Source of the DNA: Candidatus Obscuribacterales bacterium
Lineage (GTDB): Bacteria > Cyanobacteriota > Vampirovibrionia > Obscuribacterales > Obscuribacteraceae
Assembly: GCA_020050835.1 (NCBI GenBank)
Contig: JAGVKB010000097.1
Coordinates: forward strand, 1-64,000
DNA length: 64,000 nt
Direction of reading: 5' to 3'
Positions 31,856 through 39,368 of this stretch are shown piece by piece; positions within the stretch are counted from its first letter, which is position 1; every line of letters begins with the position of its first letter. A program made the position numbers and the translations under genes. The notes below the pieces were generated by a model, which worked only from the letters and a program-made list of their open reading frames with translations, ran no database searches and was not told where the DNA came from.

Positions 31856-32449
31856 TCAAGACTGCTGCCGTGCAGCCTCTCGCAACTCTTGCAACGAAAG
31901 AACAAGCGCGTCTTTGAGAATCGCCTGCCGGATCTCGCCGGTTTGCAGAACCACCGGCATCACGGCAGGGCTGAACGTCATCGAAGCTATGCCAAACCCC
32001 AACTCTCCGCAAAGTCGGCAACAGGCCTCCATACAGAGGGCAACCATGTCGGTGCATCGCCCGTAGGCGTGCATCACTTCCCAGGCCGTCGGCTTGGCAA
32101 TCATGTAGTCGGCCGCACCGAAGGCTACGCGGAAGAAGTTTCGAAGCCAGTCAGGAAGCCACTCCCCACCTTGATCAACCGCCTCTTGATGGATCCAGAT
32201 ACAGATAGTCTCCTTGACAGCGGCCGCGAACTCTTCCTCCTTGAATTGTTTGAGGGCCAGGTTACCTAACTCTGGTGGCTGCAGACGATCGGCAGTGCCG
32301 CGCAGACTGGTGAGCGCCTGTGATAACTGCTCGGAAGCTGTAATCGCCAACCGGCAGGTGTAGTAATCCAACCGAAAGTTGAGCTCTTCTTCGGAGCCCG
32401 GCTCATGCTCGGGACCAGGATGGAATAAATCGCTGAAAACACCTTCCAA
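31856..32449 (-). CDS. Uncharacterised 200-residue family, copy 3 of a tandem trio
   Basis: The TTG start at 32449 has GGGAG seven bases upstream; the product is 197 residues. It aligns along its length with the next two genes: G.EH.P...EE...RL.(F/Y)Y, then (A/E)F.EEEFAAAVKETICIWIH.EAVDQGG, a FFRVAFGAADY segment and a C-terminal QAILKDAL.L. It is the most divergent copy, with extra Cys (CRLCGELG). It is mostly alpha-helical by composition and has no signal peptide. No known family is recognised. It lies at the distal end of a minus-strand run that begins with the peptide-modification genes at 33991-36156. Confidence 0.75.
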   Translation of the reverse strand: MEGVFSDLFHPGPEHEPGSEEELNFRLDYYTCRLAITASEQLSQALTSLRGTADRLQPPELGNLALKQFKEEEFAAAVKETICIWIHQEAVDQGGEWLPDWLRNFFRVAFGAADYMIAKPTAWEVMHAYGRCTDMVALCMEACCRLCGELGFGIASMTFSPAVMPVVLQTGEIRQAILKDALVLSLQELREAARQQS

Positions 32450-32573
32450 GCACTTTCTCCCAATTCGAAAATGGCCGGCGAGCCGGAGCCCAGAACACGG
32501 CTAAGCACGACTGCAATTATAGCCGTGCCGATGCCAGGCAATCTTTACTAGTAAAAGTTCGGCCGCCCGGGGA

Positions 32574-33176
32574 TCACGGCAGCGGTCTTGTTCGCATGGT
32601 CTCAAGTGGCAATGTCAGCGCCTCCTGAAGGATCTGCTGTCGTTGCGGAGAGGTCTTGAGAAATACCCTTTCGACGGCAGCCGAAAAACCCGGTGAGAAA
32701 TCGCCGAACCCGAGCGCTCTGCAGGTGCGAGCAGCGGCAGCGCGACTGAGCGAAACAACGTCTCCAAAATCTTCGTAAGAATGCATCACTGTCAACGCTT
32801 CAGGCTCTGGTATCAAATGATCGCTGGCACTAAAAGCCAGTCTCAGAAATGTCAAAAGCCATTGGTCGGTCTTGTCTCCACCTTGATCCATCGCTTCCAG
32901 ATGCAACCATATGCACAAGACTTCCTTCACCGCAGACGCATACTCCTCGTCACTATAAGCCTTGAGCGCTAAATTACGCACAATGTCATTGGGGAGATTC
33001 GGCGCCGCCTGCCTGAGCGCCATCAAGCACTCATAAAGCGCGTCGGAGACAGCCACACTCATCCAGCAGGCATAAAAGTTCAGCCGTTCGTTCCATTCTT
33101 CATTTGTTGCCGGTCGATGTTCTGGTCGCGCCTGAAAGAGACCGGGCGGCAGCTCCTCGCCTCTGGTCTCGTGCAT
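32574..33176 (-). CDS. Uncharacterised 200-residue family, copy 2 of a tandem trio
   Basis: A longer open frame extends to 33536, but ATG 33176 has GGAGGAG six bases upstream and aligns with the starts of the paralogues, giving 200 residues. Shared motifs: PPGLFQARPEHRPATNEEW, DEEYASAVKEVLCIWLHLEA, then MDQGG and FLRLAFSASDHLIPEP. The invariant core (C-I/L-W-I/L-H-x-E-A-x-DQGG) has His, Glu and Asp that could form a metal or catalytic site; this is speculation. The gap to copy 1 is 71 bases. Confidence 0.8.
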   Translation of the reverse strand: MHETRGEELPPGLFQARPEHRPATNEEWNERLNFYACWMSVAVSDALYECLMALRQAAPNLPNDIVRNLALKAYSDEEYASAVKEVLCIWLHLEAMDQGGDKTDQWLLTFLRLAFSASDHLIPEPEALTVMHSYEDFGDVVSLSRAAAARTCRALGFGDFSPGFSAAVERVFLKTSPQRQQILQEALTLPLETMRTRPLP

Positions 33177-33247
33177 GCCGACTCCTCCTTCTGCCTCTTT
33201 GGGCTTCTTACGTAGATAGTACCTTACGCAATTCAGTCCTAACTGAT

Positions 33248-33850
33248 TCAACTCAACGGATAGGAGATAATTTGCTCGAGCGGCATCACTAGTGATTCCT
33301 GCAGAATGGCCTGTCTGGTCTGGCTGGTTTGAACGAGCAACGGTGCCAATTGCGGAGCAAAATTCAAGGCAGCATCGCCAAATCCTAGTGCTCGACACGC
33401 TTTGAAAGCGGCCTCTTTCACCAGCGCCTCTTCGTTCGTACAGCTGCCATAAGCGTTTAGCACTGTCATCGCTCGTGGGTGCGGGATCAAGATATCGGTG
33501 GCGCCGAATGCGAGTCGCAAGAATGCCAGCAACCAATCAGGCATGGAGTCGCCACCTTGATCCATCGCCTCCATATGCAACCAGATGCATAACAGCTCCT
33601 TGACCGCATTGGTATATTCTTCGTCATTGAAAGCTTTGAGCGCGGTTTGTTGCATAGTGGGATCCTGGTATTGATACGCGGTTCGTCGCAGATCAAGCAG
33701 AGTCTCCATCAGCAGATCCGAAACCGAGACGCCCAGCCGGGAAACATAGAAGTGAAGCCGCTTGTATTTCTCCTGCTTAGTTTTCGGGCAATGTTCGGGC
33801 CGCACACGAAAGAGACCGCCTGGAATTTGATCAGTCTTGACTTTGGACAT
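33248..33850 (-). CDS. Uncharacterised 200-residue family, copy 1 of a tandem trio
   Basis: ATG 33850 has AGGGG six to seven bases upstream and gives 200 residues; the open frame reaches 33934. Motifs: PGGLFRVRPEHCPKTKQEKY, FNDEEYTNAVKELLCIWLHM, EAMDQGG and FLRLAFGATDILIPHP. It is the closest copy to the DUF2063/DUF692 pair, 140 bases downstream of the former. Each copy keeps its own ribosome site, so all three are probably expressed. The function is unknown. Confidence 0.8.
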   Translation of the reverse strand: MSKVKTDQIPGGLFRVRPEHCPKTKQEKYKRLHFYVSRLGVSVSDLLMETLLDLRRTAYQYQDPTMQQTALKAFNDEEYTNAVKELLCIWLHMEAMDQGGDSMPDWLLAFLRLAFGATDILIPHPRAMTVLNAYGSCTNEEALVKEAAFKACRALGFGDAALNFAPQLAPLLVQTSQTRQAILQESLVMPLEQIISYPLS

Positions 33851-33990
33851 AGCAGGCCCCTGACTAAAGAGAGCCGGAACGAACGTGCACCGGCGATGAT
33901 TACATTGTATCTGACCGATAGAAAGCCACAACATGTCCGGCCGCCTGCCTGCTGGTTCTCAATCTGAGGGCAGCAGCGACAATCAGACTA

Positions 33991-34848
33991 TCAAAGCGGA
34001 GCCGAGCCGACCAGAAGCTTGACCTCTTGCAATTTTTCGATCATCTCCAGACACTGGAGGACGCATTGCTGCGGATCCATCCCACCGGAAGTCGATACGG
34101 CCAGAGCGATTAGATCTTTATACGCAGTCGGTTTTTCCTGAGCTGCTTCAATTACTCTGGCCGCCATCTGACCAAGTTCGAAAAATCGGCAATCATGCGT
34201 CTCTGGTTCGCGGTAGACCGCCACTTGAGTAATTTTTGGCTCGACATCTTTAGGCAGACAACAATCGTCTTCGAGATGTTCGACTATCTCTGTAATTGGA
34301 TACTTGTATCGGCGAACAGCAAGCACCGGATTGACCACCGGTCTTTGTTGCTCGAACTGCGCTGCATCGGTAAGCGGTTGATAAGGGAAGGTCTTTACCT
34401 GGCCAGGATGCTCGAGCAGCTCCAGCTCCAACCATTCGTAATCAGCTAATTCGGCGATGAACGGATACTTTCGCAAATAGCGATCGCCGAATTTGAGTAA
34501 GTATTCCGGAAACTTCTCCGCAGCCCGATTCAAGTTGTAGTGAGTCGGTGGAAACCTCTCCAGATAATTGTTCACTTCATCAGACCATCTGTCTCCGATT
34601 AGCTTTGCACAGCCTGGGAAGACGTTTTCCATCAAGTCTTGCTGGCCGAGATTGAGCAATTCCGCGTAAAGCCGCACGCCATCTTTGTCTATCTCAGCCA
34701 AGAGAGAAGCCGGCAGCTGCTCTCCCGGCTTGGAGCGATCGCGCCTTTTGCCGGTGCTTTCACTGAAGATCAGCTGCTCGCGGGCCTGCCGATTCATCCA
34801 GACCGTCGCCAGAGTTATCTCAATATCACGCAGACAATGAGCGGGCAT
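33991..34848 (-). CDS. DUF2063 (BufC/HvfC-type) partner of a DUF692 enzyme
   Basis: The first half matches the DUF2063 pattern that accompanies MNIO enzymes: LYAELLNLGQQDLMENVFPG, then NNYLERFPPTHYNLNRAAEK, FPEYLL and YPFIAELADYEWLELELLEH. In characterised systems such partners bring the precursor peptide to the iron enzyme. The C-terminal half (residues 150-285) has a PVLAVRRYKYPITEIVEHL strand and a helix-rich end. ATG 34848 has GGGGAGG six bases upstream and overlaps the end of the DUF692 gene by 23 bases, showing translational coupling. Confidence 0.85.
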   Translation of the reverse strand: MPAHCLRDIEITLATVWMNRQAREQLIFSESTGKRRDRSKPGEQLPASLLAEIDKDGVRLYAELLNLGQQDLMENVFPGCAKLIGDRWSDEVNNYLERFPPTHYNLNRAAEKFPEYLLKFGDRYLRKYPFIAELADYEWLELELLEHPGQVKTFPYQPLTDAAQFEQQRPVVNPVLAVRRYKYPITEIVEHLEDDCCLPKDVEPKITQVAVYREPETHDCRFFELGQMAARVIEAAQEKPTAYKDLIALAVSTSGGMDPQQCVLQCLEMIEKLQEVKLLVGSAPL

Positions 34849-35731
34849 AAGCAGCCTCCCCTCCCAACTTGCCTTTTGTCAGCGCCGGCTGAGTGCGTCC
34901 GGCAATCGTTCGCAGTTGCTCCAATTCAAGAAGAAGCTCGTCAAACTCTGGAAAGTTCTGATCGCGCTCGAGCATCACACCCTTCACTTCGGTGCGCTCC
35001 AACACGTACGCTAACAGCTCGAAAACCGGCTCAATCACCGGCGCGCCGTGCGTATCGATAATAAATTCTCGAATCTGTTTGTGCCCAGCGACGTGAATCT
35101 GCACGGTTCTATCAAGCGGAATCTCATCAATGAACTTGTACGGGTCGTATTTGTGATTGATAGCGTTTACATAGACGTTGTTTACATCGAGCAGAAATCC
35201 GCAATCTGCCGCCTCGGCAACCTCTGACAGGAATTGCGCCTCGCTCAGTTCACAACCGGGGGCATGCATATAGAAGGAGATATTCTCGAGCAAGAACGGC
35301 CGAGCAACATAATCTTGCACGCGCTTAATTCTTTCGGCCACATGGCTAACCGCCTCTTTGCTGAAAGGCATCGGCAAAAGATCGTGCATATAGACGCCGC
35401 CTGCACTGCTGAAACAGAGATGATCGCTCCACCAGGGAGCATTGGCTGCATCGAGCAGAGCTTTCAGCTCTTTAAGGTAATCTAAATTGAGATCATCAGT
35501 GCTACCGATCGAAAGATTCAATCCATGAGAGATGAGGGGAAAGCGCTCGCAAGCCTGGTCGAGCAAGTCACGAGCCCTTCCCCCTATTCCCATGTAGTTT
35601 TCAGGAGCAATTTCAACAAAATCAATGCGGTCCGAATGATTGAAGGTGTCGTCGGACAGATCTCTTCTCAGACCCAACCCGATGCCTAGTACGGGCAGCT
35701 CTTTCTTGATGTTCAAGAACTGTTTCGACAT
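34826..35731 (-). CDS. DUF692 multinuclear non-haem iron enzyme (MNIO, BufB/HvfB-like)
   Basis: MNIO enzymes use two or three iron ions and O2 to rework cysteine in ribosomal peptides (methanobactin MbnB, TglH, bufferin BufB). The TIM-barrel metal-site motifs are all visible: GLGLRRDL, DFVEIAPENYMG, LISHGLNLSIGS, WWSDHLCFS, LLENISFY, LLDVNNVYVNAINH, VQIHVAGH, DTHGAPV and VMLERDQNFPEF. Length (301) is normal. It lies between the Cys-repeat precursor (47 bases upstream) and its DUF2063 partner (23-base overlap). This is the bufferin/HvfABC gene order. Confidence 0.95.
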   Translation of the reverse strand: MSKQFLNIKKELPVLGIGLGLRRDLSDDTFNHSDRIDFVEIAPENYMGIGGRARDLLDQACERFPLISHGLNLSIGSTDDLNLDYLKELKALLDAANAPWWSDHLCFSSAGGVYMHDLLPMPFSKEAVSHVAERIKRVQDYVARPFLLENISFYMHAPGCELSEAQFLSEVAEAADCGFLLDVNNVYVNAINHKYDPYKFIDEIPLDRTVQIHVAGHKQIREFIIDTHGAPVIEPVFELLAYVLERTEVKGVMLERDQNFPEFDELLLELEQLRTIAGRTQPALTKGKLGGEAAYARSLSA

Positions 35732-35778
35732 ATAGATCTTCTACTCGAGCAACACTGACCGGTTGAAACTATTGGTCC

Positions 35779-36156
35779 TTACTTGCTTTCTTCTTTGCTC
35801 TTGCAGGAGCCTTCTTTGCCTTTGCAGGAGCCTTCTTTACCTTTGCAGGAGCCTTCTTTACCCTTGCAGGAGCCTTCTTTGCCCTTGCAAGACTTTTCTT
35901 TGCCCTTGCAGGATTTTTCTTTGGACTTTTTCTCTTTCTTCTCTTTCTTCTCTTTCTTTTCTACCTTCTTCTCGTCTTTCTTCTCTTCTTTCTTCTCTTC
36001 GGTCTTTGTCTCGTCAGCCAACTTGATTTGCGAAGGAGAGTTCTTCTCGGAGACGCCGAACTGTCCTGGATCTGCAGCCTTGGCTGCGCCAGTCATGCCA
36101 AGTCCGAAAGCCGCCACGAGAGCAGCAGCGAGTTGAATCTTGGAAATTGATTGCAT
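35779..36156 (-). CDS. Secreted Cys-heptad precursor peptide for the MNIO system
   Basis: ATG 36156 has AGGAG seven bases upstream. The 125-residue product has a signal peptide (ISKIQLAAALVAAFGLGM, cleavage after AKA), a short acidic/neutral linker, a Lys/Glu block and then six copies of a SCKGKEG heptad, ending CKSKEESK. The only Cys residues are the six in the heptads. Known HvfA-type substrates carry repeated EGKCG motifs and bufferins carry Cys in a secreted peptide; the EGSCKGK unit here is related but distinct. It is the first gene upstream of the DUF692 enzyme, so I infer it is the modified substrate, probably a periplasmic copper or metal-binding peptide. Confidence 0.85.
   Translation of the reverse strand: MQSISKIQLAAALVAAFGLGMTGAAKAADPGQFGVSEKNSPSQIKLADETKTEEKKEEKKDEKKVEKKEKKEKKEKKSKEKSCKGKEKSCKGKEGSCKGKEGSCKGKEGSCKGKEGSCKSKEESK
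35801..35926. repeat. Six 21-bp tandem repeats encoding the Cys heptads
   Basis: Units begin at 35801, 35822, 35843, 35864, 35885 and 35906, each starting TTGCA. The period is exactly 21 bases, so copy number can change without breaking the frame. The repeats are coding (minus strand), not a CRISPR array. Confidence 0.9.
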
Positions 36157-38051: not shown

Positions 38052-38669
38052 TTACATCCCTTCGCCGCCACCGGCTGGGGCTACAGCTGCTTTTTTAGTA
38101 GCTGTTTTCCGCTTCGCCGCGGGACGCTTTTTACCGGCAGCCTTCTTAGGAGCTACCTTCTTAGCTGTACGCTTTGCTGTTGTCTTTTTGGCAGCAGCTT
38201 TTTTCGGTGCAGCTTTGCGTTTCGGTTTTGCTGTTGTCTTTTTGGCAGCAGCGCGCTTAGGAGCAGCCTTCTTTGTAGTACGCTTGGCAGCAGCTTTCTT
38301 AGGAGCAGCTTTCTTTACCGTACGTTTCGCTGTTGTTTTCTTGGCAGCAGCTTTCTTCGGAGCGGCTTTGCGCTTTGTTGTCTTTTTGGCAGCAGCTTTT
38401 TTCGGAGCAGCTTTCTTCGGAGCAGCCTTTTTAGCAGTTGCCTTTTTAGCAGTTGCTTTCTTGGCCGGTGCCTTCTTGGCGGTTGCTTTCTTAGCAGCCG
38501 GCTTTTTGGCAGTTTTCTTCTTGGCGGCTCCCGCTTTGCGGGTCGTCTTCTTCGCGGCCTTCTTCGGCTTGGCGGCCGATTCGGCTCCCGTTACCTCATC
38601 TGCTCCGGCCGGCGCTGGCGAAACCTTCGAGCGCTTAGCCGTAGTTTTTTTTCGTTTTTTCAGTGCCAT
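38052..38669 (-). CDS. Histone H1-like Lys/Ala/Pro-rich nucleoid protein
   Basis: ATG 38669 is preferred over 38699 because GGAGG lies seven bases upstream. The 205-residue product is built from degenerate AAKK, APKKAA and KKTTAKR units and has almost no hydrophobic core. This composition is that of eukaryotic H1 tails and bacterial HctA/AlgP-like nucleoid proteins that bind DNA non-specifically. The Gly-rich end (APAGGGEGM) is unlike the rest. It is monocistronic with its own strong terminator, consistent with high expression. An opposite-strand open frame across it is a composition artefact. Confidence 0.85.
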
Positions 38670-39368
38670 TTCATTTCCTCCAGTAAGCATTGGTTGCACA
38701 GGAACAAAACTCCGGAAAACTGTTCGAGTATCCCTGGAGATTGCGAACTCACTCTTCTTTTCGAACGAGACCTATGCCACCATTTCTAGTGAGAGACCTT
38801 TTTAGTTACTCTCGTTGAACACACCACACACAACATACGATACTTGTAAACGGAATAAATTGCAAGAGATGCCCAGGTCGATCTCCACGAGCGTATCTTC
38901 TTCCAACTCTCAATTCGCAGTGGAAGCGTGTTTCCAAAAGTGGCTTTGCAGGCTGATTTCACGCACGCGAATCGTTAGAATTTTTAGTCGTATATACACC
39001 TTGCTACGTGAACAACAATCAAGAAAGTTTTTTTTGCACGTGCTCTGAAAATGTTGCTCGACATTCCGGCCGACACAATTATCGAACGCTCGGTTCCGGT
39101 GGTGAAACCAAATTGGAAGTTTCATTCAAAAGCCTTACACCATCAGCATTTCAGCAGACACTTGCCGACTATACTTCCGTTCGAGACAGTCTTCAGTCTA
39201 CCCTCGAACCGAACTGTTTCTAGTTTGTCTGAATTGGAGTTCAAGAATCCGCTTCAATCGAATTCGCAAACCTGATCGTGAAACTAAATGAATATATCCA
39301 AGCTGCCCTGAATACTATTACTAACTCAACTGTTCATGCGGTTTTCAGCAGAACAAAACGACTTCCAT
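38670..39368. other. Long gene-poor region
   Basis: About 700 bases, clearly more AT-rich than the surroundings. Several short frames exist on both strands (for example 39051-39275 plus and 38910-39125 minus), but none has a ribosome site, plausible composition or motif. It contains the promoter of the histone-like gene at its left end. Nothing else is recognised. Confidence 0.5.

Follow-up and report, generated by a model that had tools for sequence, protein, structure and literature searches.

The three genes at positions 33991–36156 of the DNA analyzed here probably form an operon for a lineage-specific captophorin, namely a Sec-exported, metal-binding peptide whose repeat cysteines would, by analogy with characterized systems, be converted to 5-thiooxazoles by a dedicated MNIO enzyme. 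The DNA (the window) comprises 64,000 nucleotides of contig JAGVKB010000097.1 from a Candidatus Obscuribacterales bacterium, a member of an order of non-photosynthetic relatives of cyanobacteria. Captophorins are a recently described class of copper-buffering peptides, and those studied experimentally are, in the literature searched, from Pseudomonadota. An initial annotation of this DNA had already proposed a peptide-modification locus of the bufferin/HvfABC type with a novel repeat, and the gene order, the enzyme, its partner and the unmatched precursor described below support this proposal well.

According to the ORF calls, the operon consists of three consecutive genes on the minus strand, encoding in this order a precursor peptide of 125 amino acids (35779–36156), an MNIO (DUF692) peptide-modifying enzyme of 301 amino acids (34826–35731) and a PME1/HvfC-like, RRE-bearing DUF2063 + NGO1945_C partner of 285 amino acids (33991–34848). 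The coupling of the genes claimed in the initial annotation corresponds to a gap of 47 bp between the precursor and MNIO genes and an overlap of 23 bp between the MNIO and partner genes. An AGGAG ribosome-binding site is located 8 bp upstream of the precursor ATG, while GGGAGGGGAGG is found upstream of the partner ATG, within the MNIO gene. No DoxX gene, copper gene or regulator was found within the operon and no YceI gene beside it, and a scan for promoters and terminators yielded no more sites than in shuffled sequences. Three tandem paralogues of a family without Pfam match lie directly downstream (31856–33934, minus strand), and homologues of these are also found near the MNIO loci L039, L045 and L049. 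Farther away, a Lys/Ala-rich, histone H1-like repeat protein of 215 amino acids is encoded at 38052–38699 on the minus strand.

The precursor is composed of a Sec-type signal peptide, judged by sequence and probably cleaved after AKA at residue 27, a K/E-rich linker and six Cys heptads. Its cysteines are residues 83, 90, 97, 104, 111 and 118, every gap being seven, so that the secreted peptide with a perfect seven-residue period was recovered as annotated. The repeat itself had been given as EGSCKGK; EGSC is indeed present in four of the six units, but the first two read EKSCKGK, and the three EGSCKGK units that follow precede a last one ending in CKSK (EGSCKSK). Equal spacing of six positions was not obtained in any of 200,000 random placements, a test that ignores that a 21-bp tandem duplication creates periodicity by itself. 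Since duplication alone gives periodicity, the codon pattern and the recurrence of the repeat in orthologous loci are the stronger evidence. Pairwise comparison of the repeat units revealed 20 synonymous and 13 nonsynonymous codon changes, and this excess of synonymous changes argues against a meaningless expansion.

With 33 Lys and 19 Glu among 98 residues, the precursor is of low complexity, and no Pfam or NCBIfam family matched it above cut-off. The HvfA models for EGKCG-type precursors (NF050137 and NF050188) were absent among the matches listed for the window precursor at E ≤ 10 and among those listed for 26 family members at E ≤ 0.1 (25 of 28 families). Likewise, the BufA2 model (NF050166) was absent among the matches listed for the window precursor and the 26 family members, and Pfam placed no DUF2282 domain in the window precursor. 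These searches agree with the earlier view that the repeat is neither the EGKCG unit of HvfA nor that of a classical bufferin. A candidate second precursor copy in the window genome (match C73) was rejected as a match of composition, being Lys-rich with few scattered cysteines and no repeat.

The MNIO, which is unique in the 7.0-Mb window genome, matches PF05114 with E = 4.5e-101, and its best NCBIfam models, HvfB (321 bits, cut-off 360) and BufB (297 bits, cut-off 310), both remain under cut-off. The nearest solved structure is PDB 3BWW (E = 2.8e-64). All metal-site residues conserved in the family are present (H69, D103, H104, E149, D182, N184/N185, H213, D226, H228, E255 and D257), confirming what had been read from the motifs. 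Based on the 3BWW alignment, the DTH motif probably corresponds to D242/H244 of HvfB, a pair reported to be essential (PMC13419390). Codons 255–263 (34943–34969, minus strand) encode ERDQNFPEF, comprising the proposed catalytic base Asp257, in agreement with the role reported for the Asp of ERD in FonB, and the proposed substrate-selectivity position Gln258, equivalent to Phe250 in FonB (PMC13097082).

The annotated DUF2063 partner was likewise recovered, with both PF09836 (DUF2063) and PF22106 (NGO1945_C) above cut-off, while the HvfC model reached 96 bits, under its cut-off of 142. Its AlphaFold model (pLDDT 87.7) had TglI (8HI7/8HCI) as the only significant fold in the PDB (E = 5.8e-7, TM 0.68–0.71). 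TglI is the partner of the MNIO TglH.

MNIO relatives were detected in 46 of 60 relative genomes, and 60 MNIO loci were compared with their flanks. About 28 of these loci have, immediately before the MNIO gene, a gene for a precursor that combines a K-[TV]-QLAAALVA signal peptide with SCKG repeats. A profile search for this precursor family, defined by the signal peptide K-x-QLAAALVA and 2 to 14 units of the repeat KGKEGSCKGKEGSCK, was positive in 45 of 53 Obscuribacterales genomes (21 of the 22 high-quality ones); a few of the 45 positives are weak, and the Lys-rich, Cys-less or Cys-poor proteins concerned (L141, L145–L149) were rejected as family members. The family was absent from all 385 genomes sampled in the rest of the phylum, which leaves a phylum-wide spread unsupported. 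The repeat is not unique to the window genome either; it recurs throughout the order, in about 20 genera, with differing unit counts and intact reading frames. Homologous loci surveyed thus use the same repeat, and DUF692 operons consistently using another substrate were not what we found.

Among the 39 genomes of the order searched for both components, 29 carry a precursor and a close MNIO, two only the MNIO, none only the precursor and eight neither (p = 7e-7, a value that is optimistic since the genomes are related). A close MNIO was defined by E < 1e-100, and only precursors with Cys repeats were counted, by hand. In an alignment of 26 precursors, the signal-peptide residues L9, L13, A15 and G18 are invariant, as are positions of the repeat, in which the cysteines are the most conserved part, while the number of units, the spacers and the Lys/Glu linkers vary. 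Such unusual conservation of a signal peptide is expected if it is also a recognition sequence. The same housekeeping-type neighbours are kept in 16 to 19 loci, and the locus therefore looks vertically inherited. In the MNIO tree, the enzymes linked to the SCKG repeat fall into one broad clade, whose inner order is uncertain.

Gadgil et al. (2026; PMC13097082) distinguish three groups of precursors in MNIO-PME1 systems: DUF2282, Lys-Cys (EGKCG) and Cys-Lys (BufA2). The window operon displays the captophorin architecture, with an MNIO bearing the metal site and the Asp, an adjacent PME1/RRE partner and an upstream Cys-rich precursor with a Sec signal. It shares with the Lys-Cys captophorins (fontiphorin FonABC, oxazolin HvfABC, gonophorin NgoABC) the order precursor-MNIO-DUF2063, the Sec signal peptide, the many short Cys repeats and a Glu three residues ahead of Cys; the MNIO also keeps both arginines of the FonB Arg15/Arg16 pair, and HvfB is its best NCBIfam model. 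In contrast to these systems, however, Lys instead of Gly follows the Cys, the unit has seven residues instead of five, the MNIO carries Gln where FonB has Phe250, the HvfA model is unmatched and the operon lacks DoxX. With bufferin-2 (BufA2, Buf_6/12Cys) it has in common the Cys-Lys dyads, the small residue before Cys and the MNIO-PME1 architecture, and SCKG also occurs in BufA2-type precursors; yet the window repeat consists of simple tandem heptads that do not follow the BufA2 pattern or match its model, and in relatives of the same family the BufA2-like locus is a separate one, with an MNIO that reads EWD[ASN] and has a single Arg and with precursors that score up to 50 bits of the 60 required by the BufA2 model. 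The resemblance to bufferin-1 (DUF2282) comprises the MNIO-PME1 pair, the exported Cys peptide and ECF sigma factors in the wider system, whereas the DUF2282 domain is missing and both the Cys pattern and the enzyme pocket differ. Judged by its sequence, EGSCKGK is a hybrid, its EGxC half being as in EGKCG substrates and its C-K half as in BufA2.

The novelty suggested for the peptide therefore applies to the repeat, for which no description of the EGSCKGK type was found in the literature searched, but not to the class, which is already recognized as captophorins: with its six C-K dyads, the window precursor could be filed under the Cys-Lys group by the published criterion (PMC13097082). It also fits the description, in the main text of Antoine et al. 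(2025; PMC12452194), of unsorted precursors with a signal peptide and 1–18 cysteines that precede mega-cluster MNIOs; that main text mentions neither the repeat, nor Obscuribacterales, nor a family name, and its supplementary tables may list members. A captophorin-type system would thus be used order-wide in non-photosynthetic Obscuribacterales. Its substrate motif is of the type that the best-studied enzyme reportedly rejects, making the choice of cysteines by MNIOs directly testable, and its very regular substrates, with up to 14 identical repeats, suit the study of stepwise modification and metal loading.

Regarding the chemistry, the initial annotation had listed oxazolone, thioamide and thiooxazole groups for known relatives. 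Of these, 5-thiooxazole stands, but for the HvfA family the former oxazolone-thioamide structure has since been replaced by 5-thiooxazole (PMC13097082, PMC13419390), and one chemistry rather than three is therefore the default expectation. It cannot simply be carried over to the window, however, because FonBC, the best-studied thiooxazole MNIO, does not process a Cys with a charged residue after it (PMC13097082). Substrate choice has been assigned to Arg15 and Arg16 of FonB, proposed to hold the Glu of the substrate, and to the FonB-250 site, with Phe for Lys-Cys and Asp for Cys-Lys substrates (PMC13097082). MNIOs linked to the SCKG repeat have two arginines (with one Arg-Lys exception) and Gln at this site, within ERDQN[FY]P; in the window enzyme, Arg22/Arg23 are kept and Gln258 replaces the Phe. 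Independent plasmid loci differ: with an AKCGADKK repeat precursor, the MNIO reads GLRRDF...ERDFNI (Phe), with BufA2-type precursors ERD[GD] (Gly/Asp), and with DUF2282 precursors there are EWD or ERD variants with Gln, Gly or Asp at the selectivity site. Gln258 is also found in 16 MNIO loci not classed as carrying an SCKG precursor and is therefore not specific for this substrate. It is thus a clade marker rather than a proven substrate match, and a match between the pocket and the C-K repeat is, for the same reason, only a hypothesis.

In the proposed pathway, the DUF2063/RRE partner would hold the conserved signal-peptide region of the precursor in the cytoplasm. As in the closest characterized enzymes, the mixed-valent di-iron center of the MNIO would then, with O2, oxidize each repeat Cys by four electrons to yield 5-thiooxazole, with Arg22/Arg23 possibly engaging the repeat Glu and Gln258 accommodating the Lys after Cys. 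The product would be lighter by 4 Da per Cys, or 24 Da in total, and should absorb at about 305 nm. For a peptide cleaved after residue 27, the calculated monoisotopic mass is 10811.52, which would fall to 10787.33 on full modification. After export by Sec, the peptide would bind soft metals, most likely copper, in the periplasm and act as a stress buffer. Copper would be the default metal by analogy only.

Precursors without a linked enzyme provide further information on the physiological context. Nine relatives harbor a second precursor, of SCKGKEG type, that reaches 14 perfect repeats and has no MNIO within 4 kb. In eight of these nine, belonging to two genera, its gene adjoins ECF sigma factor and zf-HC2 anti-sigma factor genes, accompanied by msrB-msrA in seven of the eight. 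This neighbourhood suggests a role in stress and links the system genetically to the repair of methionine sulfoxide. Because such precursors have no adjacent MNIO, the peptide may function unmodified or may be modified in trans. At L138 (4007–4735, genome G030), an SCKGKDA repeat domain with five cysteines is fused to a fasciclin domain, a second fasciclin gene lies just upstream, and there is no MNIO nearby. In addition, a second precursor type (ACGKGSCGTDEKGA), which is absent from the window genome, occurs upstream, and downstream of the partner there is a YceI-family gene, the two being found together in 11 of 12 such loci (L039, L044, L045, L049, L051, L052, L053, L055, L056, L063 and L079); YceI was found at only one other MNIO locus, the contig of which is truncated upstream. 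Together, the msrBA/ECF, fasciclin and YceI contexts point to periplasmic stress.

A more far-reaching proposal, possible but doubtful, is that we are dealing with a new precursor family and enzyme subclass, in which an MNIO with Arg-Arg and Gln would accept a charged residue after Cys and modify up to 14 identical heptads both in cis and in trans, the latter on unlinked and fasciclin-fused precursors, under ECF control together with methionine sulfoxide reductase and in response to oxidative or mixed redox-metal stress, not for simple copper buffering. It is unlikely, moreover, that the MNIO modifies the repeat cysteines to another product or for a purpose other than copper buffering, for example to make a peptide for redox stress that an ECF sigma factor would control together with periplasmic methionine sulfoxide reductase. 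The unlinked paralogous precursors, with ECF and zf-HC2 genes at all eight loci and msrBA at seven of them, are consistent with such a peptide, as are the hybrid motif and the Gln pocket, which are unlike those of characterized enzymes. However, copper-responsive bufferin operons, too, commonly contain ECF sigma genes (PMC12452194), an ECF and zf-HC2 pair lies next to an Acinetobacter MNIO locus of the KCG-repeat type, and the window operon itself has no msrBA, ECF or zf-HC2 neighbours.

We consider it quite improbable that the peptide is an unmodified thiol chelator or a Lys/Glu-rich periplasmic protein, similar to metallothioneins or to the acid-shock protein Asr, with the MNIO acting elsewhere. 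The adjacency of precursor and MNIO is held in about 28 loci, every genome with a precursor also has a close MNIO among the 39 searched for both, and the cysteines are conserved while spacers and length vary, although the low-complexity K/E-rich composition, a weak match to Asr (26 bits, cut-off 50) and the unlinked precursors would suit such a protein. Finally, that the heptads are a functionless by-product of tandem duplication in a degenerate or unexpressed repeat is hardly credible: the near-identity of the 21-bp units in DNA makes a recent expansion likely, but the same repeat persists with different unit counts and intact frames across some 20 genera, with a conserved signal peptide, ribosome-binding sites and prevailing synonymous differences between units. 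The captophorin reading given at the outset thus remains the probable one.

Other types of MNIO loci were noticed during the survey. At L085 (3950–6502) and L089 (3977–6400), and also at L083, L087, L065, L066, L071 and L092, the MNIO and a DUF2063-type partner are fused into proteins of about 600–850 amino acids, with an additional methyltransferase domain in those of L085 and L089. Upstream of the fusions of L087 and L089 lie long precursors that lack a signal peptide and have 16–19 cysteines in CVAMLPHxE or CVAYAPRPGDPP repeats, and loci of this type may represent a RiPP system more novel than the window operon. MNIO loci with different short Cys repeats, including HKCGSDKCGKDK, CSGDKK and EGSCGEKK, were found in other families of the class (L082, L084, L094 and L086) and in Myxococcota-type bins (L005, L006 and L008); this variety suggests that simple Cys repeats originated repeatedly next to MNIO enzymes.
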